A stretch of DNA of 64,000 nt from Variovorax paradoxus (lineage in GTDB: Bacteria; Pseudomonadota; Gammaproteobacteria; Burkholderiales; Burkholderiaceae_C): assembly GCF_000834655.1 (NCBI RefSeq), contig NZ_JXQQ01000008.1, forward strand, positions 124,001-188,000, written 5' to 3'. Of this stretch, positions 33,147 through 59,518 are shown piece after piece (position 1 is the stretch's first letter; every line of letters begins with the position of its first letter). Position numbers and translations under genes: made by a program. The notes below the pieces were generated by a model. The model saw only the letters and a program-made list of their open reading frames with translations, had not been told where the DNA came from and did not search any database.

Positions 33147-33228
33147 GCGGAACCGGCGTCGCCGGGCCGCAGGTGTTGCCCCCGGCAGGGGGCGGGCGAA
33201 GCGACACGAAGTGCGCGGAGCCTGGGGG
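33147..33228 (-). repeat. 84-bp-type dispersed repeat, copy A (reverse orientation)
   Basis: The reverse complement matches copies B (39501-39584) and C (59435-59518), sharing GGCTTCGCGCACTTCGTG-like, CCGGGGGC-like and GGCCCGGCGA segments. It begins 6 nt after the YaeQ stop on the YaeQ strand. A tandem pair of CACCGCGGAA (33133-33152) abuts its far end. Confidence 0.85.
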
Positions 33229-33234
33229 CGAGCC

Positions 33235-33795
33235 CTACTTCCAGCGCAGCAGTTCGACGTCGATGCTGTTCGTGCCGTCGCCCAGCGTGAGCGTGTTTTC
33301 CTGGATCGTCGCCTGCAGCTGCATGCTGCGTTGCGCCAGCGCGGCCAGCGCCTGCGAGGCCTCGGTCGGCACGCGGTAGACCTTCAGGTTCTGCGGCCGC
33401 GTGAGCTTGTTCTCGATGCCGCGCCACCAGATCTCGGCGGCATGGTTGAAGCAATAGACGACCACCTCGTCCGCCTTGCCGCACGCCTTGATGATGGGCT
33501 TGTCCTCGGGCTGGCCGACTTCGATCCAGATCTTGGTCTCGCCCGTGAAGTCGCGCAGCCAGACGTCGGGCTCCTCGACGTTCGAGAGGCCCGCGCCGAA
33601 CGCCAGCGTGCCGTCGCCCTGGCAGATGTCCTGCAGCTGGTGGGCGTTGAGCGCGAGCGCGACGAGCCGGATCATCATCCGTTCGTCGGTCTCGCTCGGG
33701 TGGCGCGCCAGGGTCAGCGCATGGTCGGCGTAATAGCCGTGGTCGATGTCGGCCACCGCGAGGGTGGCCTTGAAGATGGTGGATTTGAGGGCCAT
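33235..33795 (-). CDS. yaeQ: YaeQ-family protein
   Basis: A 186-aa protein with the YaeQ features ALKSTIFKATLAVADIDHGYY at the start, HPSETDERMMIRLVALAL near 31 and EPDVWLRDFTGETKIWIEVGQP near 74. The fold is a PD-(D/E)xK nuclease-like core, but biochemical function is not established. Length is normal. It stands alone, followed by repeat copy A. Confidence 0.95.
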   Translation of the reverse strand: MALKSTIFKATLAVADIDHGYYADHALTLARHPSETDERMMIRLVALALNAHQLQDICQGDGTLAFGAGLSNVEEPDVWLRDFTGETKIWIEVGQPEDKPIIKACGKADEVVVYCFNHAAEIWWRGIENKLTRPQNLKVYRVPTEASQALAALAQRSMQLQATIQENTLTLGDGTNSIDVELLRWK

Positions 33796-33840
33796 GGGTG
33801 CGCGAGTATGCCTGCCGTGGACGCCCGCGCCGGGCAGTCC

Positions 33841-36006
33841 TCAGAACGCCACAGATGCCTGCAGGTACACCGTGCGCGGCTGCCCCACGTACTTGCCGCC
33901 GTTGTTGTCCACCGAACGGTTGTAGTAGCGGCGGTCGAACAGGTTCTTCACGCCGACGGCCAGCTTCAGGTGGCTCATCGACGGGCCGAAGTCGTAGGCG
34001 GCGCGCAGGTTCATCGTGGTGTAGCCCGGGATGTTGCCGAGCCGGCCGGTCGAATCTTCCAGCGTCACGTACTGCGCGCCGTCGTCCGGCGAGCCGGGCG
34101 AACGTTGCTTCGATTGCGCGTACACGTCGGCATTGAGCGTCCACGGACCGCGCTCGTAGCGCGCACCCAGCGTGAGGATCTGGCGCGAATAGAACGGCAG
34201 GTCGCGCCCGGCGAAGTTGCCGGCTTTCGACGTGGCCTGCGTGTACGTGTAGGTGCCCGACACCGTCAGGCCCTTGAGCGATGCGCTCAGGTCGCCCAGC
34301 TCGTAGCGCAGCGCCGATTCGACGCCGCGGTGCCGCGTGGCGCCCAGGTCGGTCCACTGGCCGACGTCGCCGGTAATGGAGCGCGCGAGCAGCAGCTCCT
34401 TGTCGAAGTTGATGTTGAACAGCGTCAGCTCGCCGCTCCAGGCTTCGCCTTTGTAATGCGTGCCGATTTCGTAGGTCTTGGCCTTCTCGGGGTGCAAGCT
34501 GGTGGTCGACTGCGCGAGCTGGGCGTATTGCTGTGGGCCGAACGACACCCCAGCATTCGCGAACAGCGACCAGCGCTCGTTCATGCGGTAGAGCACCGAG
34601 AGCGTCGGCAGCACTTCGTTGGAATCGATCTTCGGGTAGATCGCGTTCGTGATGCGGTTGTTCGCCACGGTGAACACGTCGTTGTGCGAGCGGAAGGATT
34701 CATAGCGCACGCCGGGCGTGATCGTCCAGTTGCCGATGTCGATGCGGTCGTCGATGTAGAACGCGTGCGCGACCGTGCCGCCCTTGCTGGTCTGGTAAGC
34801 GGGGTTGGCCAGGCTGTAGGCGTCGAAGCCCGGGCGCGGCGTGTAGTAGGCGCTGCGCGTTGCGACCTCTGAGGCTTCTTCGCGCAGGTAGCGGAAACCG
34901 ACGCTGACTTCCTGCACCACGTCGCCCGAATCGATCAGGCGCGAATAGCGCGGCTCGATCGCGAAGGTCTTGTAGTTGCGCGGCGCGCTGGTCAGGCGTC
35001 GCTTGCCGGCGTTGGCGCCGGTGCCTTCCTGCTCCAGGTGGCTGCCGCGGAACGAGTCGGTGTAGTAGCTCAGCATCTCGAACTTGTTCACGCCGTCGTT
35101 GTGCGTGTACTTGATCGAGCCGTCGGTGCGCCGGCCGGTGAATTCGTCGAAGGGGCGGTCCGACTGGAACGGGTTGGCCGCGAACTGCGCCGTTGTCAGG
35201 CCGCCGGGCATGCGGCCGCTGCCTTCGAAGTGATGCAGCGACACCGCGATGTCGTCGGTGCTGGAGATGCGGTAGGCGCCCTTGAGCATCAGGTCGTCGA
35301 TGCTGGTGTGGTCGTTGCTCTGGCGAAAGCCGTTGCCGTGCGTGCCCGAATACAAGAGCGCCAGGCCCAGGCCCTTGTCGTTGGTGCCGCCGACGAACAG
35401 CGTGGGCGTCGTCTTGGTGCCGCCGCCGTGGCCGGCGCTCTCGATGCCCACGCCTACCTCGCCCGAGAACTGCTTGGGGATCGCACGCGTCACGAAGTTG
35501 ATGATGCCGCCCACGTTCTGGGGACCGTAGCGCACCGAACCGGCACCGCGCACCACATCGACCGTCTCGATGCTGCCGAGCGAAAGCGGCGCCAGCGACA
35601 GCTGCGGCTGGCCGTAAGGTGCGTAGGCCAGCGGCACGCCGTCCAGCAGGATGGTCGAGCGCGGCGACAGCCGCGAGGTGAGGCCCCGCACGCCCACGTT
35701 GAGAGAAATATCGCTGCCGCCCGTGCCGTTGCTCTCCTGCACCTGCACGCCCGGGATCTGGCGCAGCACGTCGCGCACGCTGGAGGCGCCGCTTTCCTCG
35801 ATCTGCTTGCGCTCGACGATGCTGCGCGCGCCGGCATGCTCGAGCACCTTCTTCTCGTTGGGGTTGGCGAGCCAGTCGCCGGTGACGGTGATGGTTTCCA
35901 GCGACGCCTTGGACGGGTCGGCCGCGGGCTCGGCGTCGGCGGCGAAGCTCTGCAGGCTCAGGGGTAACAGCGCCATCGCAATGGCTGTGCGTTTGTGCGG
36001 GAACAA
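33841..36006 (-). CDS. FecA-like TonB-dependent receptor
   Basis: A 721-aa outer-membrane transporter. A signal peptide ends near SFAADA. A TonB box-like stretch (LETITVTG) follows, then the plug domain (about 45-165) with GVRGLTSRLSPRSTILLDGVPLAYAPYGQPQ and RYGPQNVGGIINFVTRAIP, both close to E. coli FecA, then a 22-strand barrel ending in Phe. The N-terminal signalling domain of FecA is absent, so it should transport without FecR/FecI control. Substrate is probably ferric citrate or a similar siderophore. Start is TTG 36006 with a GGAGGAG ribosome-binding site; the upstream open frame runs through PepSY antisense and is ignored. Confidence 0.9.
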   Translation of the reverse strand: MFPHKRTAIAMALLPLSLQSFAADAEPAADPSKASLETITVTGDWLANPNEKKVLEHAGARSIVERKQIEESGASSVRDVLRQIPGVQVQESNGTGGSDISLNVGVRGLTSRLSPRSTILLDGVPLAYAPYGQPQLSLAPLSLGSIETVDVVRGAGSVRYGPQNVGGIINFVTRAIPKQFSGEVGVGIESAGHGGGTKTTPTLFVGGTNDKGLGLALLYSGTHGNGFRQSNDHTSIDDLMLKGAYRISSTDDIAVSLHHFEGSGRMPGGLTTAQFAANPFQSDRPFDEFTGRRTDGSIKYTHNDGVNKFEMLSYYTDSFRGSHLEQEGTGANAGKRRLTSAPRNYKTFAIEPRYSRLIDSGDVVQEVSVGFRYLREEASEVATRSAYYTPRPGFDAYSLANPAYQTSKGGTVAHAFYIDDRIDIGNWTITPGVRYESFRSHNDVFTVANNRITNAIYPKIDSNEVLPTLSVLYRMNERWSLFANAGVSFGPQQYAQLAQSTTSLHPEKAKTYEIGTHYKGEAWSGELTLFNINFDKELLLARSITGDVGQWTDLGATRHRGVESALRYELGDLSASLKGLTVSGTYTYTQATSKAGNFAGRDLPFYSRQILTLGARYERGPWTLNADVYAQSKQRSPGSPDDGAQYVTLEDSTGRLGNIPGYTTMNLRAAYDFGPSMSHLKLAVGVKNLFDRRYYNRSVDNNGGKYVGQPRTVYLQASVAF

Positions 36007-36057
36007 GGGGACTCCTCCGGGAATGGGAAAAAGCAGAAAAACCGTGTGCGCAGGACG

Positions 36058-36089
36058 TGAGGCGTCTTCTTCGGGGGCGGGACGCCTCA
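36058..36089 (-). terminator. Hairpin between the PepSY gene and the receptor gene
   Basis: TGAGGCGTC (36058-36066) and GACGCCTCA (36081-36089) form a perfect 9-bp stem that includes the PepSY stop codon. On the minus strand a T-rich stretch follows about 15 nt later. It may be a partial terminator or an RNA-stability element. Confidence 0.5.
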
Positions 36090-37226
36090 GGACGTTGTTC
36101 GGCTGGAAAGCGCGTTGTTGTTGCGGGCTGCGGCGGCTAGCGTGCGGCGGCGCCACCAGAGCCAGATGCCGCTGAAACCCAGGCCGCCGAGCGCAAGACC
36201 CAGCAGCGCGGTGACGACCTGGTGGGCCACGCCGCCCAGTTCGCCCGTGTGCAGCGGGAAGATCACCGCCACCGCGCCGTTGCCGGCGTCCAGGTCCTGC
36301 CACTTGCGCGCGGCCATCACCTGGCCGCTCACCGGGTTCATCCACACCGAGCTGATGCCGTTGGGATGCGGGTCGTCCGGCAGCCGGAAGCGCACGCGCA
36401 CGGGCCGGTCGTCCTTGCCGGGCACGAGCACATAGCCGATCGGCTGGCCCGGGTACACCTGCTGCGCGCGGGCGACGATGTCGTCCAGCGGCGCGCGCGG
36501 GCCGCTTGCGCCGCCCTTCGGGATCGTCGGCGCCTTGACCGGCTGCTGCCCCATGGCGGCGGAGATGAAGCCGCCCAGCGGCCGCCACGCCATGTAGGCG
36601 CCCGTGGCCACCGACACCGCGATCAGGAGGCCCAGCACCGCGCCGCCCGTGCGGTGCAGGTCGAACAGGCCGCGCAGGAGTCCGCGGTTCAGCACGATGC
36701 GCAGCGACGGCGGCCAGCGTGCGGGCCACCAGAGCACCAGGCCTGTCACCAGCAGGAACAGGTACGAGAGCGCCACGAACGCCAGGATGCCCTTGCCGGT
36801 GCTGCCCAGCAGCAGGCTGTTGTGGACCTTGTAGGCCAGGTTGTAGAAGCCCTCTTCGGTGCCGCGCCGCCCCTGCTCGGCGCCGGTGGCGGGGTCCAGG
36901 TATAGCGTGCCGTCCCACTTGCCGCGCACCAGGACCCAGAGCGTTTCGTCGGGGTGGTGGGGCGGGCGCAGCGTGAAGCTGGTGTCGGGGCCGAACTCGG
37001 CCAGGATGCGCTGGCGCAGCGGCTCGAGCGGCAACGCGGCCGTGGCCGCGATGGCATCACCCGCGCTGCGCGCGACGAACAAGTCGGAATGGATCTCGCG
37101 GTCGATCGGCCGGGACACCACCAGCACCGCGCCGAGCAGCGCGGTGAGGGCCAGGATCGGGCCGAGGGTGAGCCCGGTCCAGCGGTGGATCTTCAGCCAG
37201 AGACGTCGCAGCGGAGCGCGCAGCAT
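36087..37226 (-). CDS. PepSY-domain membrane protein (siderophore-uptake associated)
   Basis: A 379-aa inner-membrane protein with four main membrane segments: near residues 15-37, 140-165, 185-210 and 340-360. It starts LKIHRWTGLTLGPILALTALLGAVLV, the standard beginning of PepSY-associated TM proteins that act as ferric-siderophore reductases or accessory factors beside TonB receptors. It is upstream of the FecA-like gene on the same strand with an 80-bp gap, so a shared iron-uptake role is likely. No Fur box was recognised upstream. Confidence 0.87.
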   Translation of the reverse strand: MLRAPLRRLWLKIHRWTGLTLGPILALTALLGAVLVVSRPIDREIHSDLFVARSAGDAIAATAALPLEPLRQRILAEFGPDTSFTLRPPHHPDETLWVLVRGKWDGTLYLDPATGAEQGRRGTEEGFYNLAYKVHNSLLLGSTGKGILAFVALSYLFLLVTGLVLWWPARWPPSLRIVLNRGLLRGLFDLHRTGGAVLGLLIAVSVATGAYMAWRPLGGFISAAMGQQPVKAPTIPKGGASGPRAPLDDIVARAQQVYPGQPIGYVLVPGKDDRPVRVRFRLPDDPHPNGISSVWMNPVSGQVMAARKWQDLDAGNGAVAVIFPLHTGELGGVAHQVVTALLGLALGGLGFSGIWLWWRRRTLAAAARNNNALSSRTTS

Positions 37227-37366
37227 GAATCACGGGGACCTCGGAGAGTCCCGTCATGGTTGTTGGCTGGCGTGCCCGTGAAAGGGCGCGTTGGCTGGGA
37301 AATCGGGGTCTGTGTGCGGACCGCACCAACCGTTTGCCGCGGTTGGTAGATCGATGCACAAGCGCG

Positions 37367-38755
<1,389 letters not shown>

Positions 38756-38883
38756 TTAGGCGGCCGGCGGTCCGTGGGGTCGTACCGACACATTGGGGTG
38801 GATCCGGGCCTGCGGCTTTCCCGTTCACCTAAAATGATTATGAACAAGTGTCATCAAGCCAAGAGCAACGGGAGAGAGCCTTC

Positions 38884-39495
38884 ATGAAACTGATCGGATC
38901 CGCAGCCAGCCCTTATGTGCGCAAGGTGCGCGTGGTGCTGGCCGAGAAGCGGCTCGATTACCAGTTCGTGATCGAGGACGTCTGGTCCGCCGACACCACC
39001 ATCTCCAACTCCAATCCGCTGGGCAAGGTGCCCTGCCTGATCATGGAAGGCGGGGAGGCGATGTTCGATTCGCGCGTGATCGTCGAATACCTGGACACGC
39101 TGTCGCCGGTGGGCAAGCTCATTCCGCAGCAGGGCCGCGAGCGCGCCGAGGTCAAGACCTGGGAAGCGCTGGCCGATGGCGTCATGGACGCCGGCGTGCT
39201 CTGGCGCCTGGAAGCCACCTGGTCCGGCCGCAACGACCACGAGCGCAGCACCACCTGGATCGAGCGCCAGCGCACCAAGGTCGTGGACGGCGTGGCCGCC
39301 ATGTCCAAGGGCCTGGGCGACAAGCCCTTCTGCAGCGGCATCCACCTGAGCCTGTCGGACATCGCGGTGGGCTGCACGCTGGGCTGGCTGGACCTGCGCT
39401 TTCCCGACATCGACTGGCGTGGCGACCACGGCAACCTGGCAAAGCTGTACGACAAGCTGATGCTCCGCCCGAGCTTCATCGACACCAAACCCTGA
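38884..39495 (+). CDS. Glutathione S-transferase family protein
   Basis: A 203-aa cytosolic protein. The N-terminal thioredoxin-like domain begins MKLIGSAASPYVRKVRVVLAEK, with the glutathione-contact segments NPLGKVPCLI and DSRVIVEYLD. The helical C-terminal domain has LSLSDIAVGCTLGWLDLR. A short open extension to 38848 is rejected in favour of ATG 38884, preceded by GGGAGAGA. TAAAAT near 38831 is a candidate -10. Substrate unknown. Followed 5 nt later by repeat copy B. Confidence 0.92.
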   Translation: MKLIGSAASPYVRKVRVVLAEKRLDYQFVIEDVWSADTTISNSNPLGKVPCLIMEGGEAMFDSRVIVEYLDTLSPVGKLIPQQGRERAEVKTWEALADGVMDAGVLWRLEATWSGRNDHERSTTWIERQRTKVVDGVAAMSKGLGDKPFCSGIHLSLSDIAVGCTLGWLDLRFPDIDWRGDHGNLAKLYDKLMLRPSFIDTKP

Positions 39496-39500
39496 CTCTT

Positions 39501-39584
39501 CCCCAGGCTTCGCGCACTTCGTGTCGCGTCGCCTTCCCCCTCACCGGGGGCGACACCGGTGGCCCGGCGAAGCCGGTTCCACGG
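39501..39584 (+). repeat. 84-bp dispersed repeat, copy B
   Basis: Same element as copies A and C. It begins 5 nt after the glutathione S-transferase stop in sense orientation. It contains CACTTCGTG and a short perfect hairpin CCGGC-GAA-GCCGG. Confidence 0.9.
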
Positions 39585-39612
39585 CGTCCCGCGAACAAGC
39601 CGCCGCTTTGTT

Positions 39613-40407
39613 TCAAAGCCCGGTGAACCTGGCGACCGCCGGAAAGTAGAGCCGGTACGGCAGCAGCCGCATCAGCTTCATCCAGAACGTGAAGCGCCGC
39701 GGAAAGTGGATCTCGAACGCGCCACGGCGCCATCCCTCGAGCATCGCCTCTGCGGCCTGCGCGGGCGTGATGAGTGCGGGCATCGCGAAATCATTTTTCG
39801 CCGTGAGCGCCGTCGTCACGAAGCCCGGCTGGATCACGCTCACGCCGATGCCGCGGGTATGCAGATCGATGTAGAGCACCTCGGCCAGATGGGTCAGTGC
39901 GGCCTTGGTCGGGCCGTAGGCCAGGCTCTTGGGCAGCCCCCGAAAGCCGGCGACGCTCGCCGTGAGCGACACGTGCCCTGCGCCGCGCGCCACGAAGCCG
40001 GGCAGCACCGCGGCAAGCACGTTCAGCGCACCGACGTAGTTGACCTGCTGATGCGCCAGCATTTCGTCGAGCGCGAAGGCGTCGGCGCGCAGCACGCCGT
40101 AGGTGGCCGCATTGAAGAGCACGAGGTCGACGGTGCCAGCCATCGCCTGCAGCTGCGCATACGCGGCGGCGACCTCGGCGGCATCGCGCACGTCGAGCGG
40201 CAGCACGATCACGCGGGGCGGCTGCGCGGCGTCGTTGTGCAGCGCCGCGAGTTCATCGAGCGCTTCGCCGTTGCGGGCCGACACCGCGACGCGCGCGCCG
40301 CCTTCGAGCAGCGCCAGCGCCGTCGCGCGGCCGATGCCCGAGGAGGCGCCGACGATCCACGCCGTCTTGCCGTGCCAGTCGGCGAGCGGTGGATTGAAGG
40401 GCTTCAC
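39613..40407 (-). CDS. Short-chain dehydrogenase/reductase
   Basis: A 264-aa NAD(P)-dependent enzyme. The cofactor motif is GASSGIGRATA near residue 20, NAATYG near 96, catalytic Ser in SLTASVAG near 146 and YGPTK near 158. The tail has a hydrophobic FWMKLMRLLPYRLYF segment suggesting membrane contact. It starts with GTG 40407, overlapping the transporter stop by 4 bp, and is the last of five coupled genes for fatty-acid or lipid modification. Confidence 0.9.
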   Translation of the reverse strand: MKPFNPPLADWHGKTAWIVGASSGIGRATALALLEGGARVAVSARNGEALDELAALHNDAAQPPRVIVLPLDVRDAAEVAAAYAQLQAMAGTVDLVLFNAATYGVLRADAFALDEMLAHQQVNYVGALNVLAAVLPGFVARGAGHVSLTASVAGFRGLPKSLAYGPTKAALTHLAEVLYIDLHTRGIGVSVIQPGFVTTALTAKNDFAMPALITPAQAAEAMLEGWRRGAFEIHFPRRFTFWMKLMRLLPYRLYFPAVARFTGL

Positions 40408-41699
40408 CGCGACGCCTTCACCGGAAGCTGCCGAGGCGGTGCGGACGCGGCCGGTCGGATCACCAGCACCCACAGCGCCGCCCCCGCGATCACCTTCAGC
40501 ACGCAGGGAAGGAGACAGTAGGCGAGCGACAGCGCCTGCAGCGCCGACGCATCGCGCGCGCCCGGCACGTAGCCGGCCAGCCCGAGCAGCGGCAAGGCGA
40601 GCCCGGCGGCCAGCGCAAGGTTGAGCTTGGTCGCGAAGTTCCACCAGCCGAAGTAGGCGCCGGCATGCGGCTGGTCGCCGGCCTCGGCAATGATTCCGGC
40701 CAAGAGCGCGCTCGGCAGCACGAGGTCCGAGCCGATCGCGAAACCCGACAGCGCGCAGACGACGAGAAACGGCACCGCGTCGCCCGCACCCATCGCCCCG
40801 GCCCATGCGAACACCGCCACCGACATGCACATGCCGCCGAGCCAGCTGCGCGCGAGCCCCCAGCGGCGCACGATGCGCAGCCACGCCGGGATCGACGCGG
40901 CGGCCACCACGAAGTAGAGGCCGAGGAACGCGGGCTCCATGGCGGCCGGCGCGCGCAGCCGGTCCTGCACGAAGAACAGCACCAGCGTGGCCGGCACCGC
41001 GCTCGCGATGCCGTTGAGCACGAACACCGCGAGCAGGCGGCGAAACGGCGCGCGGCGCAGCGGCAGCCGCAGGTCGATCGATGCATGCGGCGCGGCGGTG
41101 CGCACCGGCCGCGGCGCCTGCGTCCAGAAGACCCATCCCACCACCAGCAGCACGCCGAACAGCGCGACCATCGCGGGCAGGCCCGCCAGCGTCGGGACGA
41201 CCGACGCGAGCACCACGCCGACGAGCCCCATGCCTTCGCGCCAGCCCACGATGCGGCTGCGCTGCGAGGCGTCGCCGCCCAGCATCGCGCCCCAGGACTG
41301 GTGCGCGATGCTCAGCATGCTGTAGCCCGCGTAGGTCAGCGCCAGCAGCACGGCGGCAACCACGAGCAGCGCGCCATGGCGCGCCGGGTCGATGAGCAAT
41401 TGCGGAAAAAAGAGGAGCCCGAAGCCCAGCAGCAACACGCCCGCGGCGACCGCGCCGAAGCCCAGCACGGCCTGAGCCGATCGCGCATGCAGCCGGTCGC
41501 TGAGCCGCCCGAGCAGCGGATCGATCACCGCATCGAGCAGCCGCGCGCCCAGCAGCACCGCGCCCAGCGTGGCGAGCGGCACACCGAAGGCGCGCGCGTA
41601 ATGGTTCGGCAGCAGCACATAGAGCGGCAGCGCGACGAAGGCGAGCGGCAGGCCGAGCAGCCCGTAGCGCACGCCGGCCAGGAGTCCGAAGGAGGCCAC
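40404..41699 (-). CDS. MFS transporter, GPH/MelB-like
   Basis: A 431-aa protein with 12 hydrophobic segments. GARLLDAVIDPLLGRLSDR near residue 50 is the typical loop of the glycoside-pentoside-hexuronide cation symporter group. In related clusters this gene accompanies cyclopropane-fatty-acid-synthase-like genes rather than sugar genes, so the substrate may be a lipid or a small membrane-active compound. The start is 6 bp after the methyltransferase stop, and the end overlaps the SDR gene. Confidence 0.87.
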   Translation of the reverse strand: MASFGLLAGVRYGLLGLPLAFVALPLYVLLPNHYARAFGVPLATLGAVLLGARLLDAVIDPLLGRLSDRLHARSAQAVLGFGAVAAGVLLLGFGLLFFPQLLIDPARHGALLVVAAVLLALTYAGYSMLSIAHQSWGAMLGGDASQRSRIVGWREGMGLVGVVLASVVPTLAGLPAMVALFGVLLVVGWVFWTQAPRPVRTAAPHASIDLRLPLRRAPFRRLLAVFVLNGIASAVPATLVLFFVQDRLRAPAAMEPAFLGLYFVVAAASIPAWLRIVRRWGLARSWLGGMCMSVAVFAWAGAMGAGDAVPFLVVCALSGFAIGSDLVLPSALLAGIIAEAGDQPHAGAYFGWWNFATKLNLALAAGLALPLLGLAGYVPGARDASALQALSLAYCLLPCVLKVIAGAALWVLVIRPAASAPPRQLPVKASR

Positions 41700-41705
41700 G
41701 AAGGG

Positions 41706-42932
41706 CTAGCGCTTTTGCAGCGTGTACTGCACCACGTCGATGTTGGCCTGCGAGAACGCCGCCTCGCAGTAGGCCAGGTAGAACTCCCAGATGCGCATGA
41801 AGCGCTCGTCGAAGCCCAGCTGCAGGATCTGCCCGCGCTGCGCGAGAAAGTGCTCGCGCCAGCGGCGCAGCGTCTCGGCGTAGTCGGCGCCGAAGGCGAA
41901 CTCGTCCACTACCGCGAGCCCCGCCGCCTCGGCCTCGCGGCGGAATTCGCGCGGGCAGGGCAGGCAGCCGCCCGGGAAGATGTACTGCTGGATGAAGTCG
42001 GTCGAGTCGATGTAGCGGTCGAAGAGCTGGTCGTCGATCACGATGCTCTGCACGCACGCGCGGCCGCCGGGCTTCAGGAGCCGGCTCACGCTCTTGAAAT
42101 ACGTCGGCCAGTATTCGCGGCCCACGGCCTCGACCATCTCGATGGAGCAGACCGCATCGAACGGTGCGTCGTCGATGTCGCGGTAGTCCTGCAGGCGCAG
42201 GTCGGCCGAGAGGCCGGCGGTGCGCTGGCGCGCGAAGGCGAGCTGCTCGGTGGAGAGCGTCACGCCCGTCACCGAGGCGCCGAAGTCGAAGGCGGCCATC
42301 TCGGCCAGCGCGCCCCAGCCGCAGCCGATCTCCAGCACGCGGTCGCCGGCCTTCACGCCCGCCATGTCGAGCGCGCGGCGCACCTTGGCGCGCTGGGCGT
42401 CGGGCATCGGCCTGCCCAGGTCGCCCTCGAACCAGGCCGACGAATAGTTCATCGTCTCGTCGAGCCAGAGCTTGTAGAAGGCATTGCCCAGGTCGTAGTG
42501 CGCGTGGATGTTGCGCGAACTCCCGGCCTTGCTGTTGCGGTGCATCAGGTGCCGCACGCGGTAGACGAGGCGGCCGAACCAGCTGCCGTAGACCACGTCC
42601 TCGATCGCGCGGCGATTGGCGATGAAGACCTTGATGAGTTCGACCAGGTTCGGCGTGGTCCAGTCGCCCGCGATGTAGCTCTCGGCGAAGCCGATGTCGC
42701 CCGACTTGAGCGCGGCCTTGCAGACCTCCCAGTTGCGCAGCGTGAGCGAGGCCGTGAGGTTGCTGCTGCCGGGCGCGGCACCGAAGTGCTGCACCGAGTC
42801 GTCGGGCAGGCGCACCGTCAGCGAGCCGTGGGCGAGACGCTGCAACAGGCCCAGCACCGTGCGCGCGGCGCCGGGGGCATCCTGCGGCAGCGAAAAGCGC
42901 GAAACCTGGGGGGCGGTGGTGGTCGGAGTCAT
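41706..42932 (-). CDS. Cyclopropane-fatty-acyl-phospholipid synthase family methyltransferase
   Basis: A 408-aa S-adenosylmethionine-dependent enzyme acting on unsaturated acyl chains of phospholipids. Seen are the N-terminal lipid-binding region, DLGNAFYKLWLDETMNYSSAWF, SAM motif VLEIGCGWGALAEMA near residue 195, EMVEAVGREYWPTYF near 270 and the FPGGCLPC segment. It may form cyclopropane rings or, like the UfaA/UfaM relatives in Rhodobacter, methylate other fatty acids. Its ATG overlaps the DUF1365 stop. Confidence 0.9.
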   Translation of the reverse strand: MTPTTTAPQVSRFSLPQDAPGAARTVLGLLQRLAHGSLTVRLPDDSVQHFGAAPGSSNLTASLTLRNWEVCKAALKSGDIGFAESYIAGDWTTPNLVELIKVFIANRRAIEDVVYGSWFGRLVYRVRHLMHRNSKAGSSRNIHAHYDLGNAFYKLWLDETMNYSSAWFEGDLGRPMPDAQRAKVRRALDMAGVKAGDRVLEIGCGWGALAEMAAFDFGASVTGVTLSTEQLAFARQRTAGLSADLRLQDYRDIDDAPFDAVCSIEMVEAVGREYWPTYFKSVSRLLKPGGRACVQSIVIDDQLFDRYIDSTDFIQQYIFPGGCLPCPREFRREAEAAGLAVVDEFAFGADYAETLRRWREHFLAQRGQILQLGFDERFMRIWEFYLAYCEAAFSQANIDVVQYTLQKR

Positions 42933-43732
42933 GGGTTCGCCTGCTGCTGGTGCGGATGGTCGCTGGACACGAAATGGCGGGGCGGCGCGGGCTTGGCGAC
43001 GAAGGGAACGCGCTTGAGCCAGAGCCTGGCGGCCTGCCAGTGGATGCGCGCAATGAGCCCGAAGGTCATCGCGGGGTAGCGCCAGAGCGCGCGCCGTGTG
43101 CTGGCCGCCGAGAGCGGGCCGAGTTCGCCGCTCACGCTGGTCTGCAGCAGGGGGCCGTCGGCGTCGTCGTGGTCGATGCGCACCACCGTGTGGGCGAATT
43201 CGGCATCGACGAAGAAGCGGAAGCGGTAGTCGCCGCTGACCTGGCAGAACGGCGAGACGTGGAAGGCCTTGGTGGCCTTGAGTTCCTGGCCGTAGACCGG
43301 GCGGTCCAGCAGGTAGCAGTGGCGCTCGCCGAAGGTGTTGTTCACCTCGACCACGATGGCGCGGAGCGCGCCTTCGGCCGTGTGGCAGTACCAGAAGCTC
43401 ACCGGCTTGAAGGTGTAGCCGAACACGCGCGGATAGCAGTGCAGCCAGGCTTCGCCGGTCGCGTCGTGGATCTGGTGGGCGGCCAGCAGGTCGTCGAGCC
43501 AGGAGAGGGCGCCGCCTTGCGCGGGCGTGCGGCCGTCGCCGTGGTCGACGTCGTGAAAGGAGAGGGCAGCCCGCCGGTTGAGCGCCAGCGACTTGCTGCC
43601 GTTCGCGCGCAGGGTGCGCATCGGCAGCATCAGGAAATAGGTCGGGTAGACGAAGGCGTTGCGCGCCGGACGCAGGCGCGCGTGGCGCACTTCGCCGAAG
43701 CCCATCAGCGGGAACGGCAAGGCCTGGCTCAT
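42929..43732 (-). CDS. DUF1365 protein
   Basis: A 267-aa protein matching the DUF1365 pattern: GEVRHARLRPARNAFVYPTYFLMLPM at the start, FGYTFKPVSFWYC near 107, NNTFGERH near 132 and KAFHVSPFCQVSGDYRFRF near 154. Function unestablished, but it is repeatedly found between an FAD oxidoreductase and a cyclopropane-synthase-like gene. ATG 43732 overlaps the oxidoreductase stop (ATGA). Confidence 0.92.
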   Translation of the reverse strand: MSQALPFPLMGFGEVRHARLRPARNAFVYPTYFLMLPMRTLRANGSKSLALNRRAALSFHDVDHGDGRTPAQGGALSWLDDLLAAHQIHDATGEAWLHCYPRVFGYTFKPVSFWYCHTAEGALRAIVVEVNNTFGERHCYLLDRPVYGQELKATKAFHVSPFCQVSGDYRFRFFVDAEFAHTVVRIDHDDADGPLLQTSVSGELGPLSAASTRRALWRYPAMTFGLIARIHWQAARLWLKRVPFVAKPAPPRHFVSSDHPHQQQANP

Positions 43733-47005: not shown

Positions 47006-47015
47006 GGGCGTGCGG

Positions 47016-47042: not shown

Positions 47043-47051
47043 TAATCGGGC

Positions 47052-47933: not shown

Positions 47934-47944
47934 TTCGCGCGGCG

Positions 47945-47971: not shown

Positions 47972-48020
47972 TTCAGTGGGTAGGAAGCAGATTTTTCAAC
48001 CACCCAACCGGAGCCTTCTC

Positions 48021-48482: not shown

Positions 48483-48492
48483 GACCGGCCCT

Positions 48493-49551
48493 TCAGCGGC
48501 GCTCGACCACCATCGGCGCGATCCGCAGGCTCTCGCGCAATTGCGCGACGGCTTCGCTGGCGGCATTGCGCGAGGCGAAAGGCCCGGCCTGCAGCCGGTG
48601 CGTGCCCGCCTCGCTGAACACGCGCAGCTGCGGCGCCAGCGAAGGCAGTCCGCGTGCGGCCTGGCTCAGCATGGTCTCTGCGCCGTCGCGTTCGCGGAAA
48701 GCGCCCAGTTGCACCCAGAAGCCCGCCACCGGGGCGGAGGATGGCGCAGCGCCCGACTCGGTGGCCGGCGGCGCTGCCTGTGCAGCGGGCAACTCCGCAG
48801 GTGCGATCGGCGCCACGGGCGACTGGGGCACGACCGGCATCGCCGAAGCCACCGGCGCACTCATCGCCACCGGCGCGACCCATGCCGAGGGCACGGGCAC
48901 CGACACCGCCACGGCGCCTTGCGGCTCCGACGGGGCCGCGGCGGCATACGCCGTCCCCGAATCCCTGCGCCACGCGCCGGTGCGGATGTCCTCGTTCGTG
49001 ATCCGCTCGATTTCCACCGGCGCCACGCCGCGCAGCAGGTCCAGCTTGAGCGCGGCCGTATAGCTCAGGTCGATGATCCGGCCGTCCACGAAGGGCCCGC
49101 GGTCGTTCACCCGCACGATCACCTCGCGCCCGTTGGCGGGGTTGCGCACCCGCACATAGCTGGGCAGCGGCAGTGTCTTGTGCGCGGCCGTCATCGCGTA
49201 CATGTCGTAGGGCTCGCCGCTCGCGGTCGATGCCGCATGGAACTTGCGGCCGTACCACGAGGCGATGCCGGACTCCTGGAACGGCCGGTCGTCGGTGATC
49301 GGCTGGTAGCCCCGGCCCAGCACCGTGTAGGGCTTGCTGGTGCCGCCGCTGCCGCGGATCGGCTCGATGCGGGGCTCGGCGTCGGGCACGCGATCGAGAT
49401 CCGGGGGAATGTTCGTCCCAGCGCCGTCGCGGCCGCTGGAGGCGCTGCCGCCGCTGCGTGTGCCGCTCGCACAACCGGCCAGGAGGACGGCGACGGCAAC
49501 CGCGCACGCAGCCAGCGCGGTCGTCGTGCGGGTGCGGGCTCCCTCAGCCAA
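48493..49551 (-). CDS. rlpA: Endolytic peptidoglycan transglycosylase RlpA (rare lipoprotein A)
   Basis: A 352-aa outer-membrane lipoprotein. The lipobox is LAGC near residue 26. The double-psi beta-barrel (about 90-185) has GIASWYGRKFH, ASGEPYDMYAMTAAHKTLPLPSYVRV and VNDRGPFVDGRIIDLS, keeping the catalytic Asp region. After an Ala/Pro/Val-rich linker, a SPOR domain (about 275-352, FWVQLGAFRERDGAE) directs it to septal glycan lacking stem peptides. It acts in daughter-cell separation. Its start overlaps the glnE stop by 8 bp. Confidence 0.94.
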   Translation of the reverse strand: MAEGARTRTTTALAACAVAVAVLLAGCASGTRSGGSASSGRDGAGTNIPPDLDRVPDAEPRIEPIRGSGGTSKPYTVLGRGYQPITDDRPFQESGIASWYGRKFHAASTASGEPYDMYAMTAAHKTLPLPSYVRVRNPANGREVIVRVNDRGPFVDGRIIDLSYTAALKLDLLRGVAPVEIERITNEDIRTGAWRRDSGTAYAAAAPSEPQGAVAVSVPVPSAWVAPVAMSAPVASAMPVVPQSPVAPIAPAELPAAQAAPPATESGAAPSSAPVAGFWVQLGAFRERDGAETMLSQAARGLPSLAPQLRVFSEAGTHRLQAGPFASRNAASEAVAQLRESLRIAPMVVERR

Positions 49552-52348
49552 ATACCGCCTTCCACAACGCGAGCATGGCTTCGCGTTCCGCGGCCAGTGC
49601 GGGCGGTGTGACCTGGGTCGGCTCCTCGTTCAGGCGCGCGCGATGCTGAACGCGGCGCAACTCGCGGTAGGCCCGTGCCGCGCTGCGGCCGATGCCTTCG
49701 GGCAGGAGCCCCGCCAGCTCGGCGCGCAACAGCAGCGCGATGTTGCCCACGTTGGGGATCAGTTCCGGGTGATCGCCAGAGGACGACAGCACCAGGAACT
49801 GCACCGCGAACTCGGCATCGACCATGCCGCCGGGGCTGTGCTTCACGTCGAAGCGGTCGGCTTTCACCGGCCGGGCGCTGCGCAGCTTGTTGCGCATCGC
49901 GATGATCTCGGCCTTGAGCGCCTCGCGGTCGCGCGGCGACACCAGCACGGCCTCGCGCACCTGGTCGAAACGCGCGCCCAGTTCGGCGCCGTGGTCCGCG
50001 CTGCCCAGCACGAAGCGCGCGCGCGTCATGGCCTGGTGCTCCCAGGTCCATGCGGTGTTGCTGCCGCGCCTGAGCTGGTACTTCTCGTAGGCCTCGAAGC
50101 TCGTGGTGAGGAGGCCCGAATTGCCGTTGGGCCTGAGCGCCGTGTCGATCTCGAACAGGTCGCCCTCGCGCGTCTTCACCGTGAGCCAGTTGATCAGCTT
50201 GCGCACATAGGCCGCATAGACCTCGCCGGCGCGCTCGTCGTCATCGTCGTAGACGAACACGATGTCCAGGTCGCTGCCGTAGCCCAGCTCTTTGCCGCCC
50301 AGCTTGCCGTAGCCGATGATCGCGAACTGCGCCACCTCGCGGTGGCGGTTGCGCACATGCGGCCAGCACCAGCGGGCAGTTATGCGCAGCGTGGTGTCGG
50401 CCAGCGCGCTCAGGTCGTCGGCCACCTGCTCGACGGTGATGCGGCCGTCCACGTCGCGCGCCAGGGTGCGGAACACCTCCGCATGGTGGGCATGGCGCAG
50501 CAGGTTCAAGAGGCGCTCTTCGTCGGCCTCGCCGGTGCGGGTGAGCGATGCGCGGCGCGCCTCGAGCTCGCGCTCGAACTCGTCGGCCACGAAGCGGCCG
50601 GACAGCATCTCGTCGCTTGCAAGCTCGTCGATCACGCCCGGGTGCTGCATCAGGTAGCGCGCGGGCCACTTCGCAGCGCCCAGCAGGCGCAAGAGGCGCT
50701 CCTGCACCGCGGGCCGCTCGACCAGCAACGCCAGGTAGCTCTCGCGGCGCATCAGCGGCTCGATCCAGTCGGCCCAGCGCATCGCGGCATCGACGTGGCG
50801 CGGCGTCTGCCCCGCGCCGTCGCCGTCGGGTTCCTTCAGCCACTGGCCGGTGCGCTGCACCAGTTGGCGCAGGCGCCCCCGGGTTTCCTCGCGCAGGGCG
50901 AGCACGCGCGGCGTCTCGCACCAGTCGCGGATGCGCTCGGCGAAGACGGGCGGCAGGTCGTCCAGCAGGTCCGCCAGGTCGGCAGGCGCCGCGGCCTTCT
51001 TGCCGCTGCACTTGCCGTTGCAGGGTTTCTCGCCGCCGAGCAGCTTGTCGAACTCCTGCGCGACGAACTCGCGATGCGTGTCCAGCTGCGCGAGGAAGGG
51101 GCAGCAGTCGGCGTAGCCCATCGACTGCGCGATCCAGCGCAGGTCGTCGTCGGCCACCGGCAGCACATGGGTCTGCTGGTCGTCCAGGTACTGGATGCGG
51201 TGCTCCACGCGGCGCAGGAACTCGTAGGCCAGGGCCAGCGCGTCGGCGGTTTCCTGCGGCATCAGGTTGGCGCGTGCGAGGCGTTGCAGCGCATCGAGCG
51301 TGGGCCGCGTGCGCAGTTCGGGGAATTGCCCGCCGCGCACCACCTGCAGGAGCTGCACGGTGAATTCGATCTCGCGGATGCCGCCGCGCGAGAGCTTGAC
51401 GTCGTTCGCGCGCTCGGGCCGGCCGGCGCTGCGGCGCGCCGACTGCTCGCGGATCTGCCGGTGCAGCGTGCGCAGCGAATCGAACACGCTGTAGTCGAGA
51501 TAGCGGCGGAACACGAAGGGCAGCACCGCGCCGCGCAGGCCCTGGGCATGGCCGCCCAGCACGACGTCGCGCGGCGCCACCACGCGGCTCTTCATCCAGG
51601 CGAAGCGCTCCCACTCGCGGCCCTGCACCTGGAAATACTCCTCGAGCGCGTCGAGCGAGACCACGCTCGGCCCCGAGTTGCCATTGGGCCGCAGCGCCAG
51701 GTCGACACGGAACACGAAGCCGTGCTCGGTGGTGTCGCCCACCAGCGCGTAGATGCGCTTGACGGCGCGCGAGAAGTACTCCTGGTTCGCCAGCCGCCCG
51801 CGCCCGTCGGCGTCGCCCTTGGTCTCGCCGTCCAAGTCGTACAGGTAGATGAGGTCGATGTCGCTCGACACGTTGAGCTCGCGCGCGCCGAGCTTGCCCA
51901 TGCCGATCACCCAGAGCTGCGCGCGCTGGCCTTCAGGGCCGAGCGGCGCGCCATGCACGGCATCGAGTTCGTGGCAGGCGTCGGCGCAGGCGATGTCCAG
52001 GGCGAACTCGGCCAGTTCGGTGACCGCGGTGGTCACCACGGCAAGAGGGGCCTGCCGGTCGCAGTCGAGCGTCACCAGCCGCTCCATCACCAGCTGCCGG
52101 ACAATGCGCAAGGCATCGCCCACCGCATCGCCGCGCTGGCGCAATGCCTCGAAGGCCACGGTCATCGACTCGCGCCGCGGCTCGCCGGGAGGAAGCAATG
52201 CAAGCTCGGCCGCATACCTGCGACGAAGGCGCTGGACGAAACGGGAGTAGGAAGAGAACGCGACCTGCGCGTCCGGCGTCGAAGTGGCTGGCAACTGGTT
52301 CACACTGCTATCGGTTTCCGTGGAACCCCTCTGAATGCTGGCGGTCAT
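49544..52348 (-). CDS. glnE: Glutamine synthetase adenylyltransferase/deadenylase
   Basis: A 934-aa bifunctional enzyme that adenylylates and deadenylylates glutamine synthetase in response to PII and glutamine. Two nucleotidyltransferase domains are visible: the N-terminal one with SSDIDLIYLYD near residue 170, and the C-terminal one with GYGSDLDIVFVYDDDDE near 690, each followed by a helical regulator-binding region. Length is normal for the family. ATG 52348 is chosen; longer frames upstream cross the divergent yhdP start. Only 25 bp separate the two divergent starts. Confidence 0.96.
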   Translation of the reverse strand: MTASIQRGSTETDSSVNQLPATSTPDAQVAFSSYSRFVQRLRRRYAAELALLPPGEPRRESMTVAFEALRQRGDAVGDALRIVRQLVMERLVTLDCDRQAPLAVVTTAVTELAEFALDIACADACHELDAVHGAPLGPEGQRAQLWVIGMGKLGARELNVSSDIDLIYLYDLDGETKGDADGRGRLANQEYFSRAVKRIYALVGDTTEHGFVFRVDLALRPNGNSGPSVVSLDALEEYFQVQGREWERFAWMKSRVVAPRDVVLGGHAQGLRGAVLPFVFRRYLDYSVFDSLRTLHRQIREQSARRSAGRPERANDVKLSRGGIREIEFTVQLLQVVRGGQFPELRTRPTLDALQRLARANLMPQETADALALAYEFLRRVEHRIQYLDDQQTHVLPVADDDLRWIAQSMGYADCCPFLAQLDTHREFVAQEFDKLLGGEKPCNGKCSGKKAAAPADLADLLDDLPPVFAERIRDWCETPRVLALREETRGRLRQLVQRTGQWLKEPDGDGAGQTPRHVDAAMRWADWIEPLMRRESYLALLVERPAVQERLLRLLGAAKWPARYLMQHPGVIDELASDEMLSGRFVADEFERELEARRASLTRTGEADEERLLNLLRHAHHAEVFRTLARDVDGRITVEQVADDLSALADTTLRITARWCWPHVRNRHREVAQFAIIGYGKLGGKELGYGSDLDIVFVYDDDDERAGEVYAAYVRKLINWLTVKTREGDLFEIDTALRPNGNSGLLTTSFEAYEKYQLRRGSNTAWTWEHQAMTRARFVLGSADHGAELGARFDQVREAVLVSPRDREALKAEIIAMRNKLRSARPVKADRFDVKHSPGGMVDAEFAVQFLVLSSSGDHPELIPNVGNIALLLRAELAGLLPEGIGRSAARAYRELRRVQHRARLNEEPTQVTPPALAAEREAMLALWKAVFG

Positions 52349-52373
52349 AATTCCCGACACAGCGCGATCCTCA

Positions 52374-56560
<4,187 letters not shown>

Positions 56561-56564
<4 letters not shown>

Positions 56565-57376
56565 AAGTCGCAGCCATCCAGATGGTGTCGGCCATCGCCC
56601 GCGAAGCCAACCTCGCACGCGCCCACGACCTGCTCGCAGAGGCCGCCGCGGCAGGCGCCGAGCTCGCGGTGCTGCCCGAGTATTTCTGCATGATGGGCGC
56701 GCGCGACACCGACAAGCTGGGCCTGCGCGAGACGGCCGGGGCGGGCATGGTGCAGGGGTTCCTGGCCGATGCGGCGCGCGAGTTCGGGCTGTGGATCGTG
56801 GGCGGCACGCTGCCCATCGAGAGCACCGATGCCGAGCACGTCTTCAACAGCTCCCTGGCCTTCTCGCCCGATGGAAAGTGCGTGGCGCGCTACGACAAGA
56901 TCCATCTCTTCTTCTTCGACAACGGCACCGAGCGCTACGACGAACGCCGCGTGATCGCCCCGGGCGCCAAGCCCGTCGTGTTCGACCTGCCTTCGCGCGA
57001 CGGCCACAGCTGGCGCATCGGCATGAGCGTCTGCTATGACCTGCGCTTTCCGGAGCTCTACCGCGCGCTCGCCAAGGAAGGCGCCGACCTGCTGCTGGTG
57101 CCCAGCGCCTTCACCCGCACGACCGGCGCCGCCCACTGGGAGGTGCTGCTGCGCGCGCGCGCCATCGAAAATCTCGCCTGGGTGGTGGCGCCCGCGCAGG
57201 GCGGCACGCATGAAAACGGCCGCCAGACCTGGGGCCAGTCGCTTGTCGTGGACCCGTGGGGCACGGTGGTGGCCCAGCAGGCGAGCGAAGAAGGCGTGGT
57301 GCTGTTCGACATCGATGCAAGGCAGATCGAGCGCACGCGCACGCAACTGCCCGTCCTGTCGCACTGCGTTCTCTAG
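56561..57376 (+). CDS. Carbon-nitrogen hydrolase (Nit/omega-amidase-like)
   Basis: A 271-aa nitrilase-superfamily amidase. The Glu-Lys-Cys triad is seen as PEYF near residue 42, YDKIHLF near 115 and VCYDLRFPE near 158. The start MKVAAIQMVS is typical. Members of the Nit1 branch hydrolyse deaminated glutathione or omega-amides. Translational coupling to yhdP (ATGA) suggests co-expression rather than a shared pathway. Confidence 0.93.
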
Positions 57377-57378
57377 CG

Positions 57379-59430
57379 ATGCCCGATGCGCTGTTGACCG
57401 TCGCACCGCAGCGGTGGGCGCGCTCCGCGTTCGCGCGCCTGCGTTCACTGTGGCAGCGCTGGTTCCTGTGGCTGCTGCTCGCGGTGCTGGTGTCGGTGCT
57501 GCTGGTCACGGTGGTGTGGCTCGCGGGGCGGCACGAGGTCGAGCAGGTGCAGGCGCAGCTCGACCGCGACACCGCCGATGCCGTGTCCGACCTGCGCAGC
57601 GGCTTCCAGCGCAACGCGCAGAGCCTGCGTGCCACGCAGACCCCGGGCACCGATCGCGCGCAATGGAACGATGCTGCGGCCGCCCTGCTGCGCGAGCATC
57701 GCGAGTGGCTGCGCATCGAATGGCGCGACGCGGCGCTGCGCCCGATCGAGGCGATCGACACGCCCTACCGCAAGCGCCTTCTCGACGAGGCCAGCCGCGG
57801 CCCCGAGCAGTCCGACGTGATGCTGGCGTGCGCGGCCGCCCGCAAGCTCGGCGCGGGCGCGTACTCGCCGAGCCACTATGTGCCGATTCCGGGCGGCGGC
57901 GGTGTCGAGGTGATGGAGTTCTGCGTGCCGATCGACGCCGGCGGGTTCCTCATTGCGAGCTATTCGCTGCGCGATGCGCTCATCGAGCTGGTCGGCCCCA
58001 CGCTCACGCGCGGACAGGAGGTGGCCTTCACCGAGGCCGACGGCACGCGGCTGGTGGCACTGGGCAGCTCGCGCCGCGTGGGCACGCGTGTCTTTACCTC
58101 GCAGCAGCTGATCGACCTGCCGGGCACCGCGCTGATGCTGCGCGTCGACGGCTGGCGCGCCGCGCCCGACCTGTTTCCGAACATGCTCACGGCGCTGGTC
58201 ACCGCGATCTCGATCGCGCTGGTGTCGGTGCTGGTGCTGCTCGCGCGAGACACGCGCAGGCGCCTGCGCGCCGAGCGCGACCTGGCCGATGCGCTCGCCT
58301 TTCGCAAGGCCATGGAAGACTCGGTCATCACGGGCCTGCGCGCACGCGACCTGCAGGGGCGCATCACCTACGTGAACCCGGCCTTCTGCGAGATGGTGGG
58401 CTTCACCCCCGAAGAACTGATGGCCGACAGCGCCGACGCCCCCGAGGCGCCCTATTGGCCCACCGAGCTGGCGCACGAATACCAGCAGCGCCAGGCACGG
58501 CGGCTGGCCGGCGGCATGCCGCCGCGCGAGGGCTTCGAATCGGTCTTCATGCGCAAGGACGGCACGCGCTTTCCGGTGCTGATCTTCGAGGCGCCGCTCA
58601 TCAACGCGCACCGCGTGCAGACCGGCTGGATGAGCGCGTTCATCGACGTGAGCGAGCAGCGCCGCATCGAGGAGCTCTCGCGCGCGAGCCAGGAGCGCCT
58701 GCAGGCCAGCGCGCGCCTGGCCACGGTCGGCGAGATGGCCTCGCTCCTGAGCCACGAACTCACGCAGCCGCTGGCCGCGATCGCGAGCTATGCGAGCGGC
58801 TCGCTCAACCTGCTCGGGCCGAATGCCAAGGGCGACCAGGGCGAAGTGGCCATGGCCGTCAGGCGCATCGCCGAGCAGGCCGACCGCGCGGGCCAGGTGA
58901 TCCGCAGCGTGCACGACTTCGTGCGCCGGCGCGACCGCACGCGAGAGGCCGTCGCGCCGCAGGCGCTGATCGATGCGGTGCTGCCGCTGGTGCGGCTGCA
59001 GGCGCGCAAGCTGGGCGTGATCATCGAGGTGGTGCTCGAAGACCGGCTGCCCGCGGCCATGTGCGACCGCACGCTGGTCGAGCAGGTGCTGCTCAACCTC
59101 GCGCGCAACGCGATGCAGGCGATGGACAGCCCCGACAACGTCGGCAGCCGCGTGCTGCGGCTGCGCGTGGCGCGCGCCGTGGCGGTGGGCGGCCCGGGCA
59201 CCGAGGACGCGCGGCGCTGGCTAGAGTTCTCGGTGGCCGATCTCGGCTGCGGCATCGGCGAGGACGTGGCCGAGCGGCTCTTCACGCCCTTCTTCACCAC
59301 GCGCGCCGACGGCATGGGGCTCGGCCTGAGCCTGTGCCGCACGGTGGTGGAGCAGCATGGCGGCGCCTTGATGCACGAACCCAACCGGCCGCGCGGCACG
59401 ATCTTCCGCTTTACCCTGCCCAGTACATGA
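57379..59430 (+). CDS. PAS-containing sensor histidine kinase (FixL/DctB-like)
   Basis: A 683-aa kinase. Membrane segments at about residues 32-54 and 270-292 enclose a periplasmic sensor of about 215 aa. A PAS domain follows (about 310-430, with GRITYVNPAFCEMVGFTPEEL). HisKA has SHELTQPLAAIASYASG with His near residue 459. HATPase motifs NLARNAMQAM, DLGCGIG and GMGLGLSLC follow. The SHELTQPL form is typical of FixL-like kinases. No haem-binding pattern was recognised. The partner regulator follows after repeat copy C. Confidence 0.92.
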   Translation: MPDALLTVAPQRWARSAFARLRSLWQRWFLWLLLAVLVSVLLVTVVWLAGRHEVEQVQAQLDRDTADAVSDLRSGFQRNAQSLRATQTPGTDRAQWNDAAAALLREHREWLRIEWRDAALRPIEAIDTPYRKRLLDEASRGPEQSDVMLACAAARKLGAGAYSPSHYVPIPGGGGVEVMEFCVPIDAGGFLIASYSLRDALIELVGPTLTRGQEVAFTEADGTRLVALGSSRRVGTRVFTSQQLIDLPGTALMLRVDGWRAAPDLFPNMLTALVTAISIALVSVLVLLARDTRRRLRAERDLADALAFRKAMEDSVITGLRARDLQGRITYVNPAFCEMVGFTPEELMADSADAPEAPYWPTELAHEYQQRQARRLAGGMPPREGFESVFMRKDGTRFPVLIFEAPLINAHRVQTGWMSAFIDVSEQRRIEELSRASQERLQASARLATVGEMASLLSHELTQPLAAIASYASGSLNLLGPNAKGDQGEVAMAVRRIAEQADRAGQVIRSVHDFVRRRDRTREAVAPQALIDAVLPLVRLQARKLGVIIEVVLEDRLPAAMCDRTLVEQVLLNLARNAMQAMDSPDNVGSRVLRLRVARAVAVGGPGTEDARRWLEFSVADLGCGIGEDVAERLFTPFFTTRADGMGLGLSLCRTVVEQHGGALMHEPNRPRGTIFRFTLPST

Positions 59431-59434
59431 TTCA

Positions 59435-59518
59435 CCCCCGGGCTTCGCGCACTTCGTGCCGCTTCTCCTTCGCCCTCGCCGGGAGCGGCACCTGCGGCCC
59501 GGCGAAGCCGGCTCCGCG
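59435..59518 (+). repeat. 84-bp dispersed repeat, copy C
   Basis: Same length and order of motifs as copy B. It begins 4 nt after the kinase stop in sense orientation and fills most of the 124-bp gap before the response regulator. Confidence 0.9.

Follow-up and report, generated by a model that had tools for sequence, protein, structure and literature searches.

A dispersed three-hairpin repeat lies mostly just past stop codons, in sense orientation, in Variovorax and related Burkholderiales

We analysed a repeat that occurs three times in a 64,000-nt stretch of the Variovorax paradoxus genome (assembly GCF_000834655.1, contig NZ_JXQQ01000008.1, positions 124,001 to 188,000 of the forward strand), hereafter the window. 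The contig that holds the window is called C117, and a window position equals the C117 coordinate minus 124000. A preliminary description, made from the letters alone, had reported three similar 84-bp copies, each starting 4-6 nt behind the stop codon of a gene (YaeQ, a glutathione S-transferase (GST) and a kinase) and always in sense orientation. We confirmed the positions with a covariance model, R1, which was built from 32 copies and sets the copy bounds used here, and with a 22-base piece of the core, which has three matches in the window (≤3 mismatches) against 0.01 expected; domain matches bore out the gene names (Table 1). The distance of 4-6 nt holds for the GST and kinase copies but not for the YaeQ copy. 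Similarly, the 84-bp core is real, but conservation spans ~110 bp, from GGCTC, 7 nt ahead of the core, through CGAAaagg past it. Copy 1 lies between YaeQ, on its 5' side, and a convergent DUF2007 gene; copy 2 follows the GST gene, whose protein has its nearest named loci in Variovorax (identity up to 98%); and copy 3, as first described, parts the kinase gene from the gene of a Response_reg-GerE regulator on the same strand.

Table 1. Repeat copies and adjoining genes in the window (positions in window coordinates; bit scores of copies are to model R1).
Feature	Position	Strand	Remarks
Repeat copy 1	33131..33235	-	101.4 bits; core as first described 33147-33228
YaeQ TAG stop codon	33235..33237	-	7 nt ahead of the CCCC that opens the 84-bp core
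YaeQ gene, upstream of copy 1	33235..33795	-	PF07152, 229 bits
DUF2007 gene, convergent to YaeQ	32808..33113	+	PF09413
Repeat copy 2	39493..39598	+	118.3 bits; core as first described 39501-39584
GST TGA stop codon	39493..39495	+	5 nt ahead of core
GST gene, upstream of copy 2	38884..39495	+	GST_N_3, GST_C_2
Repeat copy 3	59428..59533	+	95.9 bits; core as first described 59435-59518
Kinase TGA stop codon	59428..59430	+	5 nt ahead of core
PAS-HisKA-HATPase_c histidine kinase gene, upstream of copy 3	57379..59430	+	
Response_reg-GerE regulator gene, downstream of copy 3	59561..60187	+	

The repeat is abundant in the genome. A plain DNA search, in which 40 of 204 candidates were scored, yielded 41 matches, and a search with R1 yielded at least 150 copies, every one at ≥88 bits; copy numbers from genome-wide model searches are lower bounds, and model searches spanning >40 genomes ran with stricter filters. 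A scan of 1.18 Mb (five contigs, four whole or nearly whole and one partial) found 41 copies at ≥58 bits, with the next-best signal no higher than 23.5 bits, which extrapolates to about 240 copies in the 6.9-Mb genome. Variovorax copies measure ~105 nt over the model and have a GC content of 0.62-0.79. Head-to-tail tandem arrays occur in Variovorax-type genomes (loci L240, L241, L242 and L243): L240 has two units at 132 bp spacing, with a stop codon for each, and L243 (genome G009) has four units at 132 bp.

We next describe the position of the copies relative to genes; these counts rest on a self-trained codon-based gene caller or a related codon-score scan, annotated plasmids excepted. None of the 41 copies in the 1.18 Mb lies inside a called gene. 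With respect to the gene upstream, three are antisense and 38 sense; of the sense copies, 37 lie 1-14 nt past its stop codon and one at 28 nt. Random placement in intergenic DNA would give 3.0% near-stop sense copies. Two controls addressed spacer length: all 12 sense copies with ≥60 free nt adjoin the stop, and the relative positions of the 37 sense copies with both neighbours are non-uniform (Kolmogorov-Smirnov (KS) p 1.7e-9). Between same-strand gene pairs, 22 copies are sense and three antisense. Random orientation, random distance from stops and copies within genes were thus each looked for in the 1.18 Mb and not seen, and the placement first described as non-random is so. The claim that the repeat is always sense needs tempering: among the 150 listed copies, 126 are sense at ≤16 nt and one is sense at 28 nt, but 16 are antisense and seven are unclear, the latter including the second unit of a tandem. 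The exceptions show no trend with score in five bins of 30 across these 150 copies, and stop-to-repeat junctions vary in length (0-1, 5-7 and 9-15 nt).

Copies from other genomes are placed similarly. Among 36 further copies, taken from stretches of sister Variovorax, from other genera and from named loci of Acidovorax, Pseudacidovorax and Xenophilus, 28 are sense at 0-17 nt past a stop; in two the stop falls 13 nt within the model, counted from its start, and six have an antisense upstream gene. Nine plasmid records match the repeat, and in all six with gene annotation at the repeat the copy starts directly past an annotated same-strand stop, a check that is independent of our home-made caller. 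At one plasmid locus (L353, CP099604.1, locus 1180-1300) an annotated ABC permease gene starts early and overruns the repeat; this start annotation is likely wrong. At another (L347, Variovorax sp. PBL-E5 plasmid 3, locus 1172-1210) a duplicate of about the first 30 nt of the repeat follows the stop and precedes the full copy; its relative L348 has the plain arrangement, lacking this partial duplication. The downstream gene is convergent for 15 of 37 sense copies by the gene caller and for 32 of 127 by the codon-score scan; because the two scans disagree, we make no claim of enrichment at convergent gene ends.

The exceptional copies offered some further clues. Several antisense copies have no TGA, TAG or TAA triplet, which rules out a bare stop triplet as a required insertion motif, and no tRNA or tmRNA gene lies beside exceptional copies in the 12 loci scanned. 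At two antisense copies, C73:31347 (L015) and C122:26469, the reverse complement of the GC-rich 5' edge of the repeat (GGGGGTGAG and GGAGGAGAG) stands 8-11 nt ahead of a gene start, where, judging from its sequence, it could serve as the ribosome-binding site of the following gene.

The repeat has a conserved paired structure of three hairpins in series, with strong covariation; the last hairpin is the longest (ACACC.GCGG.CCGGC...GCCGG..CCGCGGTGT) and is followed by the consensus YCC.CGAAaagg. Across 84 distinct copies from one genome, 97.8% of cells are paired and 11 of 26 pairs have changed on both sides. Double-change cells number 79, against 12.6 in shuffles and 7-22 with slid partners, in an alignment fitted to the model, a bias toward structure. 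Run on the first alignment, which was not fitted, RNAalifold recovered an identical set of 26 pairs, six of them with a both-sided change that keeps pairing. Compensatory paired changes do not discriminate between RNA and DNA; they could also come from templated repair acting on imperfect palindromes. Mismatch types (G-U versus A-C) stand at 20:17 for the genome set and at 18:7 for a second one. For the idea that this is an RNA element of 3' untranslated regions, the paired structure holds up and the mismatch counts do not decide between RNA and DNA. No Rfam family reached its gathering score in the window, and five loci with the element likewise had no Rfam hit at E ≤ 0.1. By eye, the edge consensus reads GGCTC[G/A]CCCCC and GGTGTYCC.CGAA, and its conserved ends lack a GTAG or CGTC tag. 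Integron attC sites carry RYYYAAC and GTTRRRY cores at their ends; we rejected an attC identity, since the edge consensus (by eye) has no such cores and the copies are scattered over many contigs.

We compared gene ends in two sister species, G033 and G269, whose purB genes are 95% and 94% identical to that of the source genome. For the 21 copies on C117, G033 lacks the repeat at 15 of 19 sites that could be compared and G269 at 12 of 16, with the sites of window copies 1 and 3 empty in both; many empty sites are only ~10-40 nt long, and at C117:208180 G033 keeps an apparent 5' relic of the repeat. The compared sites yielded neither a readable target duplication nor an exact junction. The YaeQ-DUF2007 pair gives a second line of evidence: the repeat lies past YaeQ in the window and in L126, L131, L136 and L144, and past the DUF2007-side gene, on the opposite strand, in L145, L146 and L156. 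The YaeQ-side and DUF2007-side copies occupy opposite strands, each sense to its own gene, and must be separate events; within one side, there is room for repeated loss or interspecies exchange. Another gene end is occupied in L144 and L146 (and, by eye, L136), with differing stops and linkers. These filled and empty sites, together with the both-strand occupation of a convergent pair, support mobility of the repeat, as the preliminary description had proposed for a mobile element at gene ends. DUF2007-side proteins end in MMPG, MMP or MMPGI where the site is filled and in MMPAA in the empty L151; therefore incoming sequence can supply the stop codon. The stops of 66 repeat-linked genes (38 TGA, 15 TAG, 13 TAA) are shifted away from TGA relative to background (646, 145, 87; p 0.010).

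Transcript ends bear on what the repeat replaces. At the GST end (C117:163493) it occupies the place of an intrinsic terminator found in L122, L123, L125, G033 and others, and at C117:245388 the place of one seen in both sisters; at C117:249227 and C117:338366 a terminator is retained past the repeat. A separate terminator lies within ~110 nt past the repeat for four of the 41 copies. Among sites scored as convergent, one of 19 repeat sites has a separate terminator, versus 21 among 77 repeat-free gene ends (p 0.06). The 19 include three antisense copies and one without a downstream neighbour, and with these removed 1/19 becomes 1/15, so a lack of separate terminators at convergent repeat sites is suggestive at most. 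The repeat also stands between apparently co-transcribed genes, at C117:266039 (sister spacer 15 nt) and between two TRAP transporter genes. At seven loci (L144, L147, L155, L157, L163, L164 and L166) it lies, by eye, on the other strand past the T-tract of an apparent small RNA gene, with no stop codon; this exception to the stop rule would fit a preference for transcript ends.

A conserved stretch of ~125 nt, just downstream of GST and on the opposite strand, is found in L144, L146, L163 and other Variovorax and Xenophilus loci. A stem closes it (TGTTGCGAGG...CCTCGCAACA), its middle is rich in CCTCC and it carries a T-tract. These features suggest a small RNA gene not yet catalogued, whose loops would be anti-Shine-Dalgarno; no Rfam family matched L144, L146 or L122 at gathering scores.

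Every one of the 37 genomes searched in the genus (the source genome included) has the repeat, as do 143 of 200 family genomes, covering 112 of 141 genera; 24 genomes from the order's other families had no match. Of 300 genomes drawn across the order, 11 matched at E ≤ 1e-6, and five of these belong to other families than that of the source. The Burkholderiales hosts of the repeat comprise named Comamonadaceae and the other families f3, f4 and f30. Other-family copies have the same layout with a different first hairpin, and are mostly 88-94 nt long with a GC content of 0.72-0.80. In family f4, seven of 14 loci have a copy 0-11 nt past a stop (L337 by eye), four have one 63-77 nt past a stop, after an apparent partial copy, and three have no such stop; genome G354, from another family, holds tandem arrays (L329, L330, L333 and L334). 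In Acidovorax (L180, L186, L196 and the GST end of L193), diverged relatives whose first hairpin differs (CCCCCTGAG.CGC...GCGCCTTCCCCC) also lie closely past stops. Their sequences suggest several subfamilies, of which R1 catches only a part.

Two candidate vehicles were considered. A 111-base query found no match among phage records, and carriage by phage is not supported. A single Y1-transposase (Y1_Tnp) gene is present in the genome; it is RAYT-like, scores under the curated cut-off and stands upstream of a glutamate-synthase-like gene (L121, C59:71736). RAYT matches occur in 177 of 200 family genomes, 57 of them over the cut-off. RAYT is not supported as the mover, given that no copy lies beside the RAYT-like gene and that RAYT-negative genomes carry the repeat.

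We favour, with roughly even confidence, the reading that the repeat is a dispersed ~110-bp non-autonomous mobile element, akin to Beta-proteobacterial repeat elements (BRE) and repetitive extragenic palindromes (REPs), whose three hairpins are predicted to form a structured 3'-end block in mRNA tails. The element would likely be moved by machinery encoded elsewhere. Copies may arrive near gene ends, and those that spare the protein would persist, either keeping the old stop codon or supplying a new one at the 5' edge of the element. The first hairpin would then start ~10-25 nt past the stop, directly in front of a ribosome that is terminating; from there it could (i) protect the upstream message from 3' exonucleases, (ii) slow ribosomes or RNA polymerase, or (iii) loosen coupling to the next cistron. 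Targeting by the mover and selection after insertion both fit the position.

Several results weigh against this reading. The 3.3-kb RAYT-like locus holds no copy by the R1 model, and the repeat is present in nine of 20 listed RAYT-negative genomes, which leaves the proposed mobility without this mover; nor is there a readable target duplication or junction at the compared sites. The 16 antisense and seven unclear copies among the 150, and the placement at small-RNA terminators without a stop codon in at least three species, depart from the stop rule. As for a function in mRNA tails, mismatch types give no clear preference for an RNA fold, single-sequence folds reach z-scores of only -2.08, -0.49 and -1.40, the consensus has no U-tract, and the difference in separate terminators at convergent sites is not significant.

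Other explanations account for parts of the same evidence. A possible, if rather doubtful, one is targeted insertion without function, in which the mover itself picks the post-stop sense site (for example, through non-template DNA left exposed where ribosomes no longer cover the transcript, or through a step at the RNA level at the 3' ends of mRNAs) and the element is merely tolerated. The tight distance even in roomy spacers (12/12), the single orientation, the lack of a trend of exceptions with score, a proxy for age, over the five bins, and the finding that several species have the repeat at the same gene ends all agree with it. However, we found no targeting enzyme or fixed target motif, exact junctions vary and 16 of 150 copies are antisense; moreover, compensatory change that keeps pairing would be unneeded under mere tolerance, though a mover that reads the fold could explain it. 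A related proposal, which we consider improbable, is that insertion is steered by gene expression: the element would land on the sense strand at the end of translation or of the transcript, through an RNA-level step or on single-stranded DNA exposed behind the last ribosome, and would give the gene both a new stop and a new mRNA tail.

It is also unlikely that the repeat is a transcription terminator module, ending transcripts with or without Rho and spreading by displacing terminators. The two sites at which an intrinsic terminator was replaced are what such a module would leave behind, and the scarcity of separate terminators at convergent sites (1/19 vs 21/77, p 0.06) points the same way, but this second argument weakens to 1/15 once the four antisense or neighbourless copies are set aside, the repeat has no U-tract, two terminators are retained past it, and copies stand between apparently co-transcribed genes, including the TRAP transporter pair. 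An element acting at the DNA level, as a cruciform or hairpin, or as a protein-binding or nucleoid site of the kind proposed for some REPs, would agree with G-U mismatches not clearly above A-C (20:17, 18:7). In that case the post-stop place would reflect room only, yet neither the orientation lock (22:3 in same-strand pairs) nor the hugging of stops in roomy spacers is expected from room alone, and we regard this explanation as very improbable. An account by spacer length, in which short spacers leave every insertion close to a stop, is scarcely credible: many empty sites are indeed just ~10-40 nt long, but 37 of 41 copies against 3.0% expected, and the KS test on 37 copies, led us to reject chance or a short-spacer artefact.

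If the tail function of the favoured reading is true, the repeat would represent a common mobile way of rewriting mRNA tails, given its presence in 143 of 200 family genomes. If it loosens cistron coupling, copies such as that between kinase and regulator would be natural differences in operon balance between sister species.

Among described repeats, BREs are 75-91 bp long, GC-rich (mean 69%) and mostly intergenic; they are reported from Bordetella, where they form tandems, and from Comamonadaceae, with Variovorax absent from the table of hosts, at 1-29 copies per genome, some within coding sequences, and no function was assigned (Hot et al. 2011, PMC3110155). Like BREs as presented there, our repeat has several Burkholderiales families including Comamonadaceae as hosts, and its other-family copies form tandem arrays. 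In length (mostly 88-94 nt) and GC content (0.72-0.80) these copies overlap or somewhat exceed the BRE values. The diverged other-family copies fit BRE in hosts, tandem layout and approximate size. Unlike BREs, the repeat has at least 150 copies, spans ~110 bp and has none of 41 copies in called genes, and its stop-codon and orientation rule is not among the BRE traits given above from PMC3110155. In the open-licence literature (subscription journals were outside the search) we found no statement of a stop-codon rule for this repeat.

The repeat shares with intrinsic terminators the presence of hairpins past genes and can stand in a terminator's place, but it lacks a U-tract, lies nearer the stop and conserves its primary sequence. 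Set beside the short, high-copy extragenic palindromes of the REP/REPIN type, it has at least 150 copies, with 0/41 in called genes, and three hairpins over ~110 bp. GTAG/CGTC REPs and RAYT-linked REPs/REPINs are, like it, non-autonomous stem-loop repeats, and GTAG REP ends are reported often to give a neighbouring open reading frame its TAG stop (PMC3733652, PMC2817692). Unlike RAYT-linked REPs/REPINs as these sources portray them, our repeat has no GTAG/CGTC tag, its tandems are head-to-tail and not inverted, and no copy lies beside the RAYT-like gene.

By analogy, and on the published accounts cited here, the nearest functional parallel is found in the REPs of E. coli, which are likewise extragenic stem-loops, some of them close to a stop. 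In one count 446 of 4,072 lie within 15 nt of a stop, and for REPs at this distance reduced translation of the gene upstream has been reported (PMC12306157, citing Liang 2015). In contrast to these, the present repeat is longer, has three hairpins and places 126 of 150 copies within 16 nt in one orientation. It offers a sharper case than E. coli REPs for asking why extragenic palindromes gather past stops, by targeting or by selection; what would be new relative to E. coli REPs is the strictness of the placement, the single orientation, the family-wide spread and the dynamics of the sites.

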